This document shows, piece after piece, positions 4,987 through 17,091 of a stretch of DNA of 26,655 nt (positions are counted from its first letter, which is position 1; every line of letters begins with the position of its first letter). This DNA is from a virus. The notes under the pieces were generated by a model, which had not been told where the DNA came from, did no database searches, and saw only the letters and a list, made by a program, of their open reading frames with translations. Made by a program: the position numbers and the translations under genes. Where the stretch lies: the IMG/VR virus record IMGVR_UViG_3300043425_000446, positions 1 to 26,655 of that record; one strand, given 5' to 3'.

Positions 4987-4999
4987 GGGGCCTCCTGGG

Positions 5000-5023
5000 G
5001 TTTCTGGGTAATCACCCAGAAAC
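5000..5023. repeat. Perfect inverted repeat, candidate left-arm integrase sites
   Basis: GTTTCTGGGT at 5000-5009 and its exact complement ACCCAGAAAC at 5014-5023 are separated by 4 nt. The same 9-mer CCCAGAAAC recurs twice on the other side of the tRNA-like core (5166-5174, 5177-5185). Paired or repeated short sites on both sides of a core are what arm-type sites of tyrosine integrases look like. The arm lacks a following T-run, so a terminator is less likely. Confidence 0.5.
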
Positions 5024-5042
5024 GGGTGAACGATAACGACAC

Positions 5043-5062
5043 CAAACGCGAACAAACGCGAA
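5043..5062. repeat. Tandem 10-bp direct repeat beside attP
   Basis: CAAACGCGAA occurs twice head to tail (5043-5052, 5053-5062). The spacing is about one helical turn, so a protein bound to both copies would sit on one DNA face. Excisionases often bind such phased direct repeats in the attP arm. This is an inference from position and spacing only. Confidence 0.4.
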
Positions 5063-5104
5063 CAGAGCACACGCAATTTCAATGGCTTAGCTGCTGGCTG
5101 TTTT

Positions 5105-5149
5105 CTGGGGGGATAGGGGTCGCTGGTTCGAATCCAGTCGCTCCGACCA
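5105..5149 (+). other. attP core: 3' part of a tRNA-Pro gene (anticodon loop to CCA)
   Basis: From 5116 the sequence reads as the variable loop, T-arm (GCTGG, TTCGAAT loop, CCAGT), acceptor 3' strand CGCTCCG, discriminator A and CCA of a tRNA. The GGGGTCG before the T-arm and the CGCTCCGACCA end are typical of tRNA-Pro. Upstream, CTGGGGG at 5105-5111 sits where a tRNA-Pro(GGG) anticodon loop would be, but the bases before it do not complete the stem and there is no D-arm. It is therefore not a working tRNA gene but the copy that restores the host tRNA on integration. It lies 265 nt past the integrase stop. Confidence 0.8.
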
Positions 5150-5164
5150 TTTTTACCCTTAAAA

Positions 5165-6583: not shown

Positions 6584-6759
6584 GTGTTCTCCCTCCAGTC
6601 CTGGACGGCTCTGGCTGTTACCATGTAGCCGCGTCCGATAATCTCTGCTGCCAGTTCCCCGGCCCTGATGGCGCGGCGCAGCGTGCTGACGGTGGCTCCC
6701 CCGTGGGGGAAGCAGACTTGCACGGCTGTTTCGAGCGGCATGGGCGTCATGTCTGCCAT
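6382..6759 (-). CDS. HTH DNA-binding protein, excisionase-like
   Basis: The 125-residue reading starts at 6759 behind GAGGAAG. Residues about 10-57 look like a winged helix-turn-helix/MerR-type unit (T-A-V-Q-V-C-F, then V-S-T-L-R-R-A-I-R-A-G-E-L-A-A-E, then G-Y-M-V-T-A-R-A-V-Q-D-W), as in phage excisionases. The C-terminal 60 residues are Lys/Arg/Ser/Thr-rich and overlap the start of int by 178 nt. Such long Xis/Int overlaps are known in this group and tie the two expression levels. Directly upstream of the integrase, a role in excision or int control is likely. An alternative is a general repressor of the operon. Confidence 0.65.
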   Translation of the reverse strand: MADMTPMPLETAVQVCFPHGGATVSTLRRAIRAGELAAEIIGRGYMVTARAVQDWRENTCHARAKARASISGKGRGKRPSMLSETEKRKLALDALQRMLTGPAKPCGITSQTTSGPTRANAASTG

Positions 6760-10690: not shown

Positions 10691-10703
10691 CCTACATGGT
10701 AAC
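10691..10703 (+). promoter_or_regulatory. Operator copy O1
   Basis: CCTACATGGTAAC, identical to the copy at 10735-10747 and 12/13 to the minus-strand copy at 10180-10168. It lies 44 nt from the second copy (about four helical turns) and on the repressor-gene side, where it could give the repressor control of its own promoter. Confidence 0.6.
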
Positions 10704-10720: not shown

Positions 10721-10749
10721 TTGACACAAAGGTTCCTACATGGTAACGA
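10721..10749 (+). promoter_or_regulatory. Rightward early promoter with operator O2
   Basis: TTGACA (10721-10726) and TAACGA (10744-10749) are spaced 17 nt. The operator CCTACATGGTAAC (10735-10747) overlaps the -10, so a bound repressor would block polymerase. With the start about 7-8 nt after the -10, the transcript would begin at or next to the ATG at 10757. That gives a leaderless mRNA and agrees with the absence of a ribosome site there. The half-sites GTTCC...GGTAAC form an imperfect dyad. Confidence 0.65.
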
Positions 10750-10960: not shown

Positions 10961-11211
10961 ACTCCCCCGCCTTGTCGTTCCCCCCGGAAATGACAGCACT
11001 CCTCCCTGTGTGCGGCGGCACCTTGGCCCGCGTTACATGTAACGCTTCATCCTCCCAGGTGGGCCTCTTTCATTCAGTTCCGGCGGCTGGGTTTGCTTCC
11101 TTCCCCAGCCACGGCGAGAGCGGCGCAGATAGGTGTCTGCCGGAAGACGCCAAGTCGCTCTCGCTACCCCCTCACAATACCGTGCTTACAGATTTGTTCC
11201 ATGCGTATTGA
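10957..11211 (+). CDS. Doubtful 84-residue ORF
   Basis: An ATGA overlap with the Cro-like stop is the main argument for translation. The product is rich in Pro, Ser, Ala and Cys with no clear secondary structure or family, and the DNA beneath it holds an unusually dense set of dyads (11030-11164). The stretch may be a non-coding control region and the frame accidental. Confidence 0.3.
   Translation: MNSPALSFPPEMTALLPVCGGTLARVTCNASSSQVGLFHSVPAAGFASFPSHGESGADRCLPEDAKSLSLPPHNTVLTDLFHAY
11030..11045. promoter_or_regulatory. Perfect 16-bp palindrome
   Basis: GCGTTACATGTAACGC is an exact palindrome. Its core TTACATGTAA resembles the operator core TACATGGTAA of the early promoters with one base fewer, so it could bind the repressor, the Cro-like protein or another dimeric regulator just after the start of the rightward operon. 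Confidence 0.5.
11085..11164 (+). ncRNA. Hairpin cluster, possible antitermination or leader RNA
   Basis: GGCTGGG (11085-11091) pairs with CCCAGCC (11104-11110). Immediately after, GCGAGAGCG (11114-11122) pairs exactly with CGCTCTCGC (11156-11164) and encloses GCAGA/TCTGC (6-nt loop, from 11125). Two adjacent stem-loops early in an operon recall the put sites of HK022, which act in RNA. A smaller CCC-AGGT-GGG hairpin precedes them at 11054-11063. No T-run follows, so these are not ordinary terminators. The role is inferred. Confidence 0.4.
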
Positions 11212-14205: not shown

Positions 14206-14384
14206 GTGACATTCCATATTGCTTGGAAAGGCTTGAAGCAGAGTTCCAAATTTTGCGGCATACATATTTGATGGTTCAGCGAGAGAGAGACAATTTGGCC
14301 GTTCGCTACGACCAAGCCCTGAAGCGCATCAATGACCTTACTGCCGAACTGGAATACCTGCGCCGAGAGGTGAACCGTGGCTAA
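14202..14384 (+). CDS. 60-residue coiled-coil protein
   Basis: The product is one long helix with leucine heptads (C-L-E-R-L-E-A-E-F-Q-I-L-R, Q-A-L-K-R-I-N-D-L-T-A-E-L-E-Y-L-R-R-E). It overlaps the methyltransferase stop (ATGA), and its last codons provide the GAGAGGTGA ribosome site for the NusG-like gene. Possibly a dimerising partner for one of its neighbours. No family recognised. Confidence 0.6.
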   Translation: MSDIPYCLERLEAEFQILRHTYLMVQRERDNLAVRYDQALKRINDLTAELEYLRREVNRG

Positions 14385-14847
14385 CTGGATCATTCTCCGC
14401 ACCGACACCCGCAAGGAAGCGTTTGTAGCGCGTCAGATTGCCCAGATGGGGTATCAGGCATGGGTGCCTATCCAAATCATCGCAAGCCGCCCCAGCGCCG
14501 CCCGCAGGGTCACGGCGAAGGCACATCTGACCAGCATCAAGGAATTGCCAATCCTGCCGCGCCGCGTGTTCGCCAGGATTGTTGATTACCTCGACCGCGA
14601 GACACAATCAGAGATTCAAAGCATTCGTTATTTCGATGCTTTCGAGCGTGACGCAGAACAGCGGTTTGCTTTGGTGCCGGATGACCAGATCGCCGCATTC
14701 CGCGCGGTGATTGAGGCGGAAAACACCGCATCGCTGGCGTTGAGCCAAAGAGCGTCACGCAAGCAAAAGGCGAAGTGGAAGTCGCTTCATGGCGCACTGG
14801 TGGAGATGATTGAGGGCGCGAAGGCACAGTTGGAGCAGGCGGCATGA
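14377..14847 (+). CDS. NusG N-terminal-domain protein, candidate late antiterminator
   Basis: The 156-residue protein, from a GTG at 14377, begins with an NGN fold pattern: N-W-I-I-L-R-T (strand 1), E-A-F-V-A-R-Q-I-A-Q-M-G-Y-Q-A-W-V-P (helix 1 and strand 2), then L-P-I-L-P-R-R-V-F-A-R-I (strand 3) with the usual Pro and Phe. The C-terminal 50 residues are helical and basic (A-S-R-K-Q-K-A-K-W-K) and no KOW domain is present. NusG-type proteins bind the RNA polymerase clamp and prevent pausing. Last substantial gene of the early operon, directly before a structured leader and the late genes, it sits where lambda has Q. NGN fold is well supported; late control is inference. Confidence 0.78.
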   Translation: MANWIILRTDTRKEAFVARQIAQMGYQAWVPIQIIASRPSAARRVTAKAHLTSIKELPILPRRVFARIVDYLDRETQSEIQSIRYFDAFERDAEQRFALVPDDQIAAFRAVIEAENTASLALSQRASRKQKAKWKSLHGALVEMIEGAKAQLEQAA

Positions 14848-14969
14848 TTGTTGACCTGACTTACATGGCGCGCATCTGGCGGGTGTTCAGTGTTCCCAAA
14901 TTGGGAAAAGCGGCGAACAAAGAAACATGCCATAAAAAAGTTACAATTACCCCCGATATTGCACGATGA
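14844..14969 (+). CDS. 41-residue small ORF after NusG-like gene
   Basis: The ATG overlaps the NusG-like stop (ATGA), with GGAG upstream. The product is short and basic (M-I-V-D-L-T-Y-M-A-R-I-W-R-V, later K-A-A-N-K-E-T-C-H-K-K-V). The same frame continues open after the TGA to 15083. Real translation is plausible from coupling; no function seen. Confidence 0.4.
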   Translation: MIVDLTYMARIWRVFSVPKLGKAANKETCHKKVTITPDIAR

Positions 14970-15083
14970 CGAATTGCATATGGCGCTCAAGAGGGTTCGC
15001 CCCGTGCCTGCAAACGCTGCTCCCTGCGGCGTGATTGCGTAGAATTGCCTGAAATTCTGACGGCAAGGCGAAAGACGGCTTAA
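14970..15083 (+). pseudogene. Possible remnant of a small zinc-knuckle protein
   Basis: The frame continuing after the TGA at 14967 has no start codon but encodes C-K-R-C-S-L-R-R-D-C-V-E-L-P-E-I-L from 15009. This is a compact Cys-x2-Cys-x6-Cys unit like those in small phage proteins that read C-x-x-C-x-x-R-x-x-C. ATGs at 14966 and 14980 lie in the other two frames and could be joined to it by a one-base change near the GTGCCTGC at 15004-15011. So this looks like a broken gene, or one with an assembly error, but it is too short to be sure. Confidence 0.3.
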
Positions 15084-15118
15084 CCAGCAATCCTAGCTGC
15101 CAAGGAAATCACGGCCTG

Positions 15119-15206
15119 TTAGGGCTCCCTGTGGTGGGGATGCACCGAAAGGTGGGGAAAGGGCAAAGAGGATCACGGTCCTCTTGTCGTTGTAAGAGCC
15201 CCTTAA
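15119..15206 (+). ncRNA. Structured leader element upstream of late genes
   Basis: An outer stem GGGCTC (15122-15127) with GAGCCC (15196-15201), extended by TTA/TAA past a bulge, encloses two hairpins: CACC-GAAA-GGTG with a GNRA tetraloop (15143-15154), and AAGAGGA/TCCTCTT (15166-15172 with 15179-15185). A multi-branched fold with a tetraloop in a non-coding interval suggests selection for RNA structure. It lies between the NusG-like gene and terminase, so it could be the loading signal for that factor, a cos-adjacent element or a small RNA. Folding has only been judged by eye. Confidence 0.45.
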
Positions 15207-15233
15207 AATGATGGCGGCCCGTCAGTAACCTAA

Positions 15234-15304
15234 TTCCCCTGCGTCCCTTCAACCACGCGCCGTTCCCCGACTGCATCCGTCTCGGGTTGATAAGCGCAGG
15301 GGAA
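15234..15304 (+). repeat. Long-range inverted repeat before terminase
   Basis: TTCCCCTGCG (15234-15243) and its exact complement CGCAGGGGAA (15295-15304) enclose a further CAACC/GGTTG pair (15250-15254 with 15285-15289). Together they form a 71-nt nested stem structure, next to the multi-branched element. Either an RNA leader structure or a terminase recognition (cos/pac-like) DNA element would fit this position. Confidence 0.45.
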
Positions 15305-15473
15305 CCCAACCATCAGGTGTTTGTCCGAGCCTGAGCCCGATTGGCGCGTCCTAGACGCATCGGACTCCAGTTCACAACAATTCCCGCCCGCACCACTGCC
15401 ACCCTCTCCCAGGTATTGCGTAGAGCAGATTGCGCTTGCGCGGCGGGAACCCTTCACAAGCAAAGAGGCCAGC
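15305..15473 (+). other. Rest of late leader, no gene seen
   Basis: Between the inverted repeat and the terminase start I find no convincing ORF, tRNA or promoter. The only frame open here is an N-terminal extension of the next gene from 15321 with a Pro/Ser-rich, unconserved sequence and no ribosome site. It is probably untranslated leader. Confidence 0.4.
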
Positions 15474-15827
15474 ATGAGCGACCAAGCCAATCCGGCAGTC
15501 GCGGATGACGCTACGGCAGAAGACACTAAAGAAGTGACCTCTAGTGAACGCCGCAAGCCGCCCGCTGCTGGAATGGGACGCCCAAAAGGCTCCCTGAACA
15601 AGACAACCGCATTGCTCAAGGACGCTATCTTGCTGGCCGCTCAGAAGGCTGGCGGTGACGGCGAAGATGGGCTGGTGAATTACCTTCAGGTTCAGGCGCA
15701 GACCAACCCCGGCCCGTTCATGTCTCTTCTGGGCAAGGTGCTGCCCATGACTGTGGCGGGTGACAAGGACAACCCTGTTGTTGGCGAAGTCCGAGTGACA
15801 ATCGTTGATCCGCTCAATAGATCGTAA
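15474..15827 (+). CDS. terS: Terminase small subunit-like protein
   Basis: Read from the ATG at 15474 with AGAGG upstream, 117 residues. The first 40 residues are acidic and disordered. Then comes G-R-P-K-G-S-L-N-K-T-T-A-L-L-K-D-A-I, a basic start followed by a helical segment common in small-terminase-like proteins beside P22-like head genes, and N-P-G-P-F-M-S-L-L-G-K-V-L-P-M. It would recognise the phage packaging site and recruit the large subunit. It overlaps the large subunit gene by 23 nt. Size and position support the call; sequence alone does not prove DNA binding. Confidence 0.7.
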   Translation: MSDQANPAVADDATAEDTKEVTSSERRKPPAAGMGRPKGSLNKTTALLKDAILLAAQKAGGDGEDGLVNYLQVQAQTNPGPFMSLLGKVLPMTVAGDKDNPVVGEVRVTIVDPLNRS

Positions 15828-17091
15828 GGTTGCCCGCAAACTTGTCCCACTTCTCCAGCCAGCACGCTATCTCGCGGCATTTGGGGGAAGAGGCAGCGGT
15901 AAATCGCATTTCTTCGCTGAACAGCTTATTCAGGACGCGATTGCAAATCCTGGCCTCCGCGCGGTCTGCATCCGCGAAGTCCAGAAGTCCCTTAAGGAAA
16001 GCGCCAAGCGTCTTCTTGAAGACAAGTTGAAAGAATTTGGCCTTGGTGAGGCAGACGGCTTCCGCAGCCTTCAGGACCGCATAGAAACCCCTGGCGGTGG
16101 CATCATCATTTTTCAGGGCATGCAGGACCACACTGCGGAAAGCATCAAATCCCTCGAAGGCTATCAGAGAGCATGGATTGAGGAAGCGCAGACACTTTCG
16201 GCTCGGAGCCTCGGCCTTCTACGTCCTACAATTCGCGCGGAAGGTTCGCAGATTTTCTTTTCGTGGAACCCCACGCGGAAGTCAGACCCCGTAGACCAAA
16301 TGTTCCGCAGTGGTGATCCGCCGACCAATAGCGTTGTTGCCAATGTGAACTGGTCAGACAACCCGTGGTTCCCTGCGGTTCTCGAACAGGAACGCCTAGA
16401 CTGCCTCAGAAGCCAGCCTGACCAGTACCCGCATATCTGGGAGGGCGACTACGCCACGGTTCTCACGGGCGCATACTACGCCAAGCACCTTCAGGAAGCC
16501 CGCGAGCAGGGCCGCATCGGCAAGGTACAGCCTGACCCCTTGATGCAAGTGCGGGCCTTCTGGGACATTGGCTTCAATGACAGCACGGCAATCTGGATCG
16601 CGCAGTTCGTCGGCAGGGAAATCAGGGTTCTCGACTATTACGAAGCGCAAGGCCAGCCGCTCGCGAGCCATCTGGTATGGCTTAGAAGTCGGGGCTGGGA
16701 TAACTGTCTATGTGTACTCCCCCACGACGGTTCCCAGCATAGCAACATTACTGGAATCCGCTTCGCAGATCATATCCGCCAAGCTGGTTTCAAAGCTGAG
16801 ATAGTAGACAACCAGGGCAAGGGCGCTGCCATGAAGCGCATTGAAGCGGCCCGCAGGCTGTTTCCGTCCATCTGGTTCAACGAAGACACAACCCGCGCCG
16901 GATTGGATGCTATTGGCTGGTATCACGAGAAGCGCGACGAAGCCCGCAACATTGGCCTTGGACCGGATCACGACTGGTCCTCGCACGCCGCAGACGCATT
17001 CGGCCTGATGGCCGTGGCTTACGAAGCCCCGAGAGAGAAAACCAAACCCCGTGAACGCGCCCATGTCGGCGGCGGATCGTGGATGAGTTAG
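15805..17091 (+). CDS. terL: Terminase large subunit (PBSX/Terminase_3 type)
   Basis: The 428-residue packaging motor has Walker A G-G-R-G-S-G-K-S (27-34), a Walker B-like R-A-W-I-E-E-A-Q (about 124-131) and an adjacent coupling segment F-F-S-W-N-P-T. The C-terminal nuclease domain includes W-D-I-G-F-N-D-S-T-A (about 252) and a late D-H-D-W-S-S-H-A-A-D-A-F. It cuts concatemers and pumps DNA into the head using ATP. The only available start in this frame is the TTG at 15805, inside the end of the small subunit gene, so translation is probably coupled. Length is normal for the family. Confidence 0.93.
   Translation: MIRSIDRKVARKLVPLLQPARYLAAFGGRGSGKSHFFAEQLIQDAIANPGLRAVCIREVQKSLKESAKRLLEDKLKEFGLGEADGFRSLQDRIETPGGGIIIFQGMQDHTAESIKSLEGYQRAWIEEAQTLSARSLGLLRPTIRAEGSQIFFSWNPTRKSDPVDQMFRSGDPPTNSVVANVNWSDNPWFPAVLEQERLDCLRSQPDQYPHIWEGDYATVLTGAYYAKHLQEAREQGRIGKVQPDPLMQVRAFWDIGFNDSTAIWIAQFVGREIRVLDYYEAQGQPLASHLVWLRSRGWDNCLCVLPHDGSQHSNITGIRFADHIRQAGFKAEIVDNQGKGAAMKRIEAARRLFPSIWFNEDTTRAGLDAIGWYHEKRDEARNIGLGPDHDWSSHAADAFGLMAVAYEAPREKTKPRERAHVGGGSWMS

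Follow-up and report, generated by a model that had tools for sequence, protein, structure and literature searches.

In the virus analysed here, a NusG paralogue without a KOW domain may stand in the place of lambda Q, where it would be recruited via a conserved leader hairpin (H1) and antiterminate late transcription. We put the probability of this reading at about 0.62, the binding to H1, the promoter and the antitermination all being predicted steps. Antitermination through H1 is favoured by the homology of the protein to NusG, by the lambda Q-like position of its gene, by the precedents of LoaP and RfaH, and by the occurrence of RfaH together with its ops element in related phages.

Gene order around the late leader

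The window (the whole stretch of DNA analysed, a virus record of 26,655 bases) has a lambda-like gene order on its plus strand. The cI-like/cro-like genes are followed by RusA, a GcrA-like regulator, the replication initiator, a DNA methylase, a 60-aa ORF, the NusG-like gene, the late leader, terS, terL, the portal gene and the major head protein gene. The NusG-like ORF begins before the one preceding it has ended, an arrangement seen in translated operons. Downstream of it lies a gap of 0.6 kb, the late leader, and the earlier statement that no convincing gene is present there holds over this whole length. The order found, in which a candidate antiterminator gene ends the early operon and is followed on the same strand by a leader and the late genes, is that of Q-type late antitermination. 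The features are as follows.

14377-14847, plus strand: NusG-like gene, last of the early operon; 156 aa, GTG start
14929-14960, plus strand: upstream block, GCCATAAAAAAGTTACAATTA...GATATT, candidate late-promoter region; near-fixed spacing in relatives
14974-15013, plus strand: H1, conserved RNA hairpin of 40 nt, UUGCA-UAU-GGCGC-UCAA-G-A-GGG-UUCG-CCC-C-GUGCC-UGCAA
15014-15032, plus strand: H2, second hairpin; stem kept in relatives while its sequence turns over almost completely
15041-15058, plus strand: H3, short AGAATT/AATTCT inverted repeat at the end of the conserved block; conserved in relatives, mostly invariant
15057-15233, plus strand: variable cassette, the multi-branched fold that includes the GNRA hairpin and the 7-bp hairpin; each relative has another insert or none
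15234-15304, plus strand: element A, 71-nt nested inverted repeat, CCCCTGCG/CGCAGGGG; invariant stem in 9 aligned sequences
15309-15376, plus strand: element B, optional GTCCGA/TCGGAC hairpin; in L002, L003, L094, L095 and L100
15381-15449, plus strand: element C, hairpin TTCCCGCC/GGCGGGAA just upstream of the first late gene; two double-changed pairs
15474-15827, plus strand: first late gene, in the place of the terminase small subunit; PHROG 11043, with terL directly after
15805-17091, plus strand: terminase large subunit; Terminase_3

Elsewhere in the window, the repeated sequence CTACATGGTAAC is found around the repressor region (10692-10703, 10736-10747 and 6617-6628), and the palindrome GTTACATGTAAC occurs at 11032-11043 as well as in the late-leader upstream block of L002 (~1452-1463); both are possible repressor operators. 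At ~4990-5150, beside the integrase, a reading frame containing GVAGSNPVAPT, typical of a tRNA 3' end, marks a possible attP.

The NusG-like protein

The protein matches the Pfam NusG profile PF02357 with 27.9 bits (cut-off 22.2) over residues 3-108 and profile positions 2-92 of 93, and three of eight family members pass the same cut-off. It also matches PHROG 6386, 'transcription antiterminator' (5e-6). UpxY (NF033644) is the sole NCBIfam family matched, and all 8 members scanned match it; for the window protein the score (E 8.9e-9, 35.5 bits) is far below the model cut-off of 100, and UpxY, known from Bacteroides capsule operons, regulates different genes. In a profile-profile comparison with hhalign, the family aligns with four KOW-bearing phage NusG proteins at E 7e-5 and a probability of 62%. 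A PDB profile search with the protein returned chance matches only. The KOW domain that is usual in NusG, RfaH and LoaP was not matched by any KOW model, and the residues after ~108 lack it. The NusG relative without KOW that was described as closing the early operon is thus borne out by the Pfam score and the unmatched KOW models.

The AlphaFold model, built from an 8-sequence alignment, has a mean pLDDT of 58.4, with residues 33-97 below 50; the order of strand, helix and strand is consistent, and the C-terminal tail is predicted as one long helix at pLDDT ~80-90. It counts against the preferred explanation that a model of such low confidence (pLDDT 58) leaves the assignment of the NGN domain to the sequence profiles, by which it is supported. 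The best explanation is that the protein would be a specialised NusG paralogue, in which a putative NGN domain is joined to a helical tail replacing KOW. The family has 11 members that are 53-61% identical to the window protein. No close relative was found in isolate phages, and in bacterial genomes neither a match to the protein nor a prophage was found.

Hairpin H1 in the late leader

The part of the leader shared by all relatives is a block of ~110 bp, which runs from GCCATAAAAAAGTTACAATTA onwards with near-fixed spacing and contains H1. In this hairpin, an outer stem of 5 bp is followed by a 3-nt bulge in the 5' strand and another 5-bp stem, then by a UCAA bulge, again in the 5' strand, and GGG-UUCG-CCC. 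In an alignment of 13 distinct sequences, 97.8% of the cells of its 14 pairs are paired and the bulges are kept. Two pairs are changed on both sides (U-A to C-G, and C-G to G-C). The covariation score is 0.176, compared to 0.101 +/- 0.015 in column shuffles (0/500 reach it), and sliding the partner yields no more than 0.051. RNAalifold recovers the fold unprompted. The covariation that the earlier note had proposed to look for in the leaders of relatives is therefore present, and it lies in H1, a hairpin which that note had missed. Since the stability of H1 is not unusual for its composition, it is covariation and conservation that make the case for it. On the protein tree, at least 2 changes are required for the C-G/G-C swap, a count that leader exchange between phages could lower.

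Of the 20 contigs that bear H1, the window among them, 18 have the tetraloop UUCG or UCCG; UUCG is the loop in most, and the variants, all in divergent contigs, are UCCG in L110 and L111, UUUG in L112 and UUAG in L130. Between divergent members, identity is 75-97% over the 40 nt of H1 and 55-64% in the DNA of the nusG genes. H1 is thus better kept than the nusG genes, even in the presence of unlike terminases, which implies strong selection on it. The invariant G.U pair and the confinement of the bulges to the 5' side fit RNA better than a DNA palindrome.

Two other readings of the H1 region were rejected. In the case of a short encoded peptide (MALKRVRPV...), the paired C/G swaps alter residues yet keep the stem, and the end of the frame differs in L097. 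An alternative pairing between the 5' stem of H1 and the 3' side of H2 is predicted in some relatives, but the window, L097 and L130 do not preserve it. Scans against Rfam returned no meaningful match.

Linkage of the gene and the hairpin

Related contigs were gathered from IMG/VR by a terL search and by DNA patterns; most members are from one clade and come from metagenomes. The NusG-like family is found upstream of the leader in all related contigs that reach far enough. Every contig that carries the protein and extends past its gene also carries H1, and every H1 contig with enough upstream DNA carries the gene. The linkage appears from either side: L110, L111 and L112 were found by the protein and have H1 downstream in all three, and L130 was found by the H1 pattern and carries the protein, the two being ~0.65 kb apart. 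When 67 loci were scanned with an H1 covariance model, matches (3e-14 or better) occurred only in records known to have the gene; none was found in the 58 other loci, which are mostly terL relatives and include some fragments. Part of this co-occurrence is shared ancestry, because most members are closely related.

The terminases of the carriers differ. The terL of L098, L094 and L120 is of the window type (73-90%), that of L100 and L130 is distant (31% over half the length), and in L097 no terL match to the window is detectable, although the pair of gene and hairpin is kept. Alone among the leader elements, H1 is kept throughout, the ~0.2-kb leader of L097 included. Searches of isolate phage and plasmid records did not find the leader. 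H1 pattern matches in bacterial genomes were scattered, lacked a NusG-like gene and were discarded.

Other parts of the late leader

A late promoter may lie in the upstream block at 14929-14960. A sigma-70 consensus scan of the leader found no promoter and a plus-strand scan found no clear intrinsic terminator, and this lack of either signal speaks against the preferred explanation. H2, which adjoins H1 and was likewise overlooked before, is kept as a stem; the six versions of it that diverge most fold more stably than shuffled sequences (combined Fisher p 3e-7).

The variable cassette is inserted between GAAATT (ending at 15056) and TTCCCCTGCG (from 15234), and its insert of ~70-180 nt differs in each relative or is missing. 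The same hypervariable site is seen in L003, L004, L090, L095 and L100, which have unrelated inserts at the identical position. The multi-branched fold that had been described there does exist, with its outer stem CTGACGG/CCGTCAG and its GNRA and 7-bp hairpins, and its closing stem is matched by 2% of shuffles. Its significance was not borne out, and it is not conserved: the fold z of the cassette is -0.69 in the window, and the fold differs or is missing in relatives. Some of the inserts of relatives are well folded (z -4.0 in L090, -2.4 in L095 and -2.3 in L003). As a signal the multi-branched fold was rejected, since it is not conserved and its stability does not exceed that of shuffled sequences. 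Nor does the entire leader surpass such sequences in folding (z -0.72).

The 71-nt nested inverted repeat proposed earlier coincides exactly with element A; its end stem beats all 300 shuffles and its fold z is -4.35. Element B is absent from L004, L090, L093 and L098. For element C, the covariation is 0.154, compared to 0.072 in shuffles. The elements A, B and C behave as modules that are gained and lost among relatives, several of which have 0.4-0.9 kb with minus-strand ORFs between element C and terS. A 60-aa helix-turn-helix-like ORF, absent from the window, lies on the minus strand between leader and terS in L002 (1770-1952), L003 (394-576) and L004 (1158-1340). Between elements A and C, L095 (~600-660) and L107 have an optional hairpin, CCCTACAGGTTCCGGCTTGTAGGG in one version and CCCACGGGTTCCGGCCTGTGGG in the other, with the same loop and a covarying stem.

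NusG paralogues in related phages

Other NusG-family proteins occupy the same region upstream of terL in ppBjS10J-1, L008, L012, L028, L035, L036 and L076. The protein of L035/L036 (records G022 and G023) is a true RfaH of 163 aa (L035 3473-4021; E 1.9e-27 against the E. coli protein of known structure), and a perfect ops element, GGCGGTAGCGTG, lies between its gene and the terS-like first late gene. Among 161 loci, this element occurs only in L035/L036 and L123/L124, which are the same two records; it was not found in L001, the locus with the gene and leader of the window. L035/L036 is likely to be a second and clearer case of a NusG paralogue serving as a late switch.

Two further NusG-family proteins are annotated 'hypothetical protein'. 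One is in Bradyrhizobium phage ppBjS10J-1 (L083 4563-5195), upstream of the gap in front of the terminase genes, and the other is near the record end of Labrenzia phage vB_LagS-V1 (PP058680 37696-38283).

Proposed mechanism and comparison with known systems

On its way into the late operon, transcription, which probably starts at a promoter close by on the 5' side, would produce H1 within the first tens of nucleotides of the transcript. The NusG-like protein would be recruited to RNA polymerase via the H1 RNA, possibly aided by the upstream block, and would then travel with the polymerase. Neither Rho nor the stops within the long untranslated leader and further downstream would then halt late transcription. 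Whether it is Rho or intrinsic stops that the protein counters, and which nucleic acid it reads, are points that we infer.

The closest parallel is LoaP, a NusG paralogue that binds a UNCG leader hairpin, which is needed for antitermination, other factors being unnecessary (PMC12691694). As in the dfn/mln leaders of Bacillus, a specialised NusG paralogue is found in the window together with a leader hairpin of the UNCG tetraloop type. However, LoaP acts on antibiotic operons rather than phage late genes, and H1 differs from its hairpin in the conserved 5'-side bulges and in the UUUG or UUAG loop of two members; the likeness is one of loop type and position, not of established homology, and binding to H1 is predicted. 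It weighs against the preferred explanation that LoaP binds RNA with both domains, whereas the window protein has no KOW. It is the ops element that recruits RfaH, which keeps NusG out, and rfaH-like genes have been mentioned in prophages (PMC7593976). RfaH/ops and the window share an NGN-type paralogue and a short recognition signal ahead of a long operon; the window protein, in contrast, is NusG/UpxY-like rather than RfaH by profile, has no ops and lacks a KOW domain for the fold switch.

Like the genes of lambda Q and other phage late antiterminators, the window gene closes the early operon, and the late leader with the late genes comes next. Q, however, is of an unrelated protein family and loads at a promoter DNA element. 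The put RNA antiterminators of HK022 resemble H1 as structured RNAs near the transcript start; unlike the window system, they act without a phage protein and on early genes.

Alternative explanations

The switch proposed in the earlier note is partly supported: the covariation of H1, the NusG profiles and the co-occurrence of gene and hairpin despite unlike terminases favour it, but the signal it names, the multi-branched fold with its GNRA hairpin, is not conserved. An alternative is that H1 acts as DNA: its non-template strand could be recognised by the NGN domain, in the way that RfaH recognises ops, or it could belong to a promoter, and its folding as RNA would then be incidental. This is unlikely, although it is the strongest of the alternatives. 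In its favour, ops, too, forms a short hairpin in the non-template strand, to which the NGN of RfaH binds (PMC7593976), a promoter-like conserved block lies immediately 5' of H1, and RfaH with ops occupies the same place in L035/L036; yet H1, at 40 nt, exceeds the ops hairpin in length, its stems covary with G.U pairs retained, and the H2 stem, kept through nearly full sequence turnover, fits RNA. The covariation with G.U pairs also speaks against the idea that the leader is a packaging (pac/cos) or replication site beside the small terminase gene. Its location just upstream of terS would suit such a site, but relatives have up to ~1 kb extra between H1 and terS, and the persistence of the gene and H1 with unlike terminases makes a packaging site very improbable.

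Somewhat less probable than a DNA signal is that the leader elements are RNA devices for the stability or translation of late mRNA, the NusG-like protein being a mere neighbour with another target. The covarying element C, which ends 24 nt upstream of the first late start codon, and the gain and loss of leader modules are in keeping with such devices; the retention of H1 even in the short L097 leader, and its co-occurrence with the gene in searches from both sides, are not. It is just as improbable as a packaging site that the protein delays or stops late transcription, as a pausing or Rho-assisting NusG would, with no antitermination. Housekeeping NusG does assist Rho (PMC7819879), but the contact with Rho is made via KOW (PMC7593976), which the window protein is missing, and the known specialised paralogues promote elongation. 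Recruitment through H1 followed by antitermination is thus the reading that we retain.

Biological implications

Literature searches that covered openly accessible papers, and few subscription journals, found no account of phages using a NusG paralogue as the basis of a late switch. Beyond the window, we regard it as an even chance that tailed phages have repeatedly recruited NusG paralogues as late switches instead of Q, that every such paralogue has a leader signal to itself (ops in the case of RfaH, H1 in that of the family without KOW), and that in the window family the NGN domain alone would read an RNA hairpin of the UNCG kind. The targeting of NusG paralogues is known in few systems. 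Here, a small protein without KOW and a 40-nt hairpin stay linked while their surroundings, terminases included, are exchanged, which makes them a compact pair open to testing and adds a new class of candidates for late regulators of phages. The presence of RfaH and ops in the same slot of sister phages would offer, in addition, a natural experiment on how NusG proteins acquire their signals.
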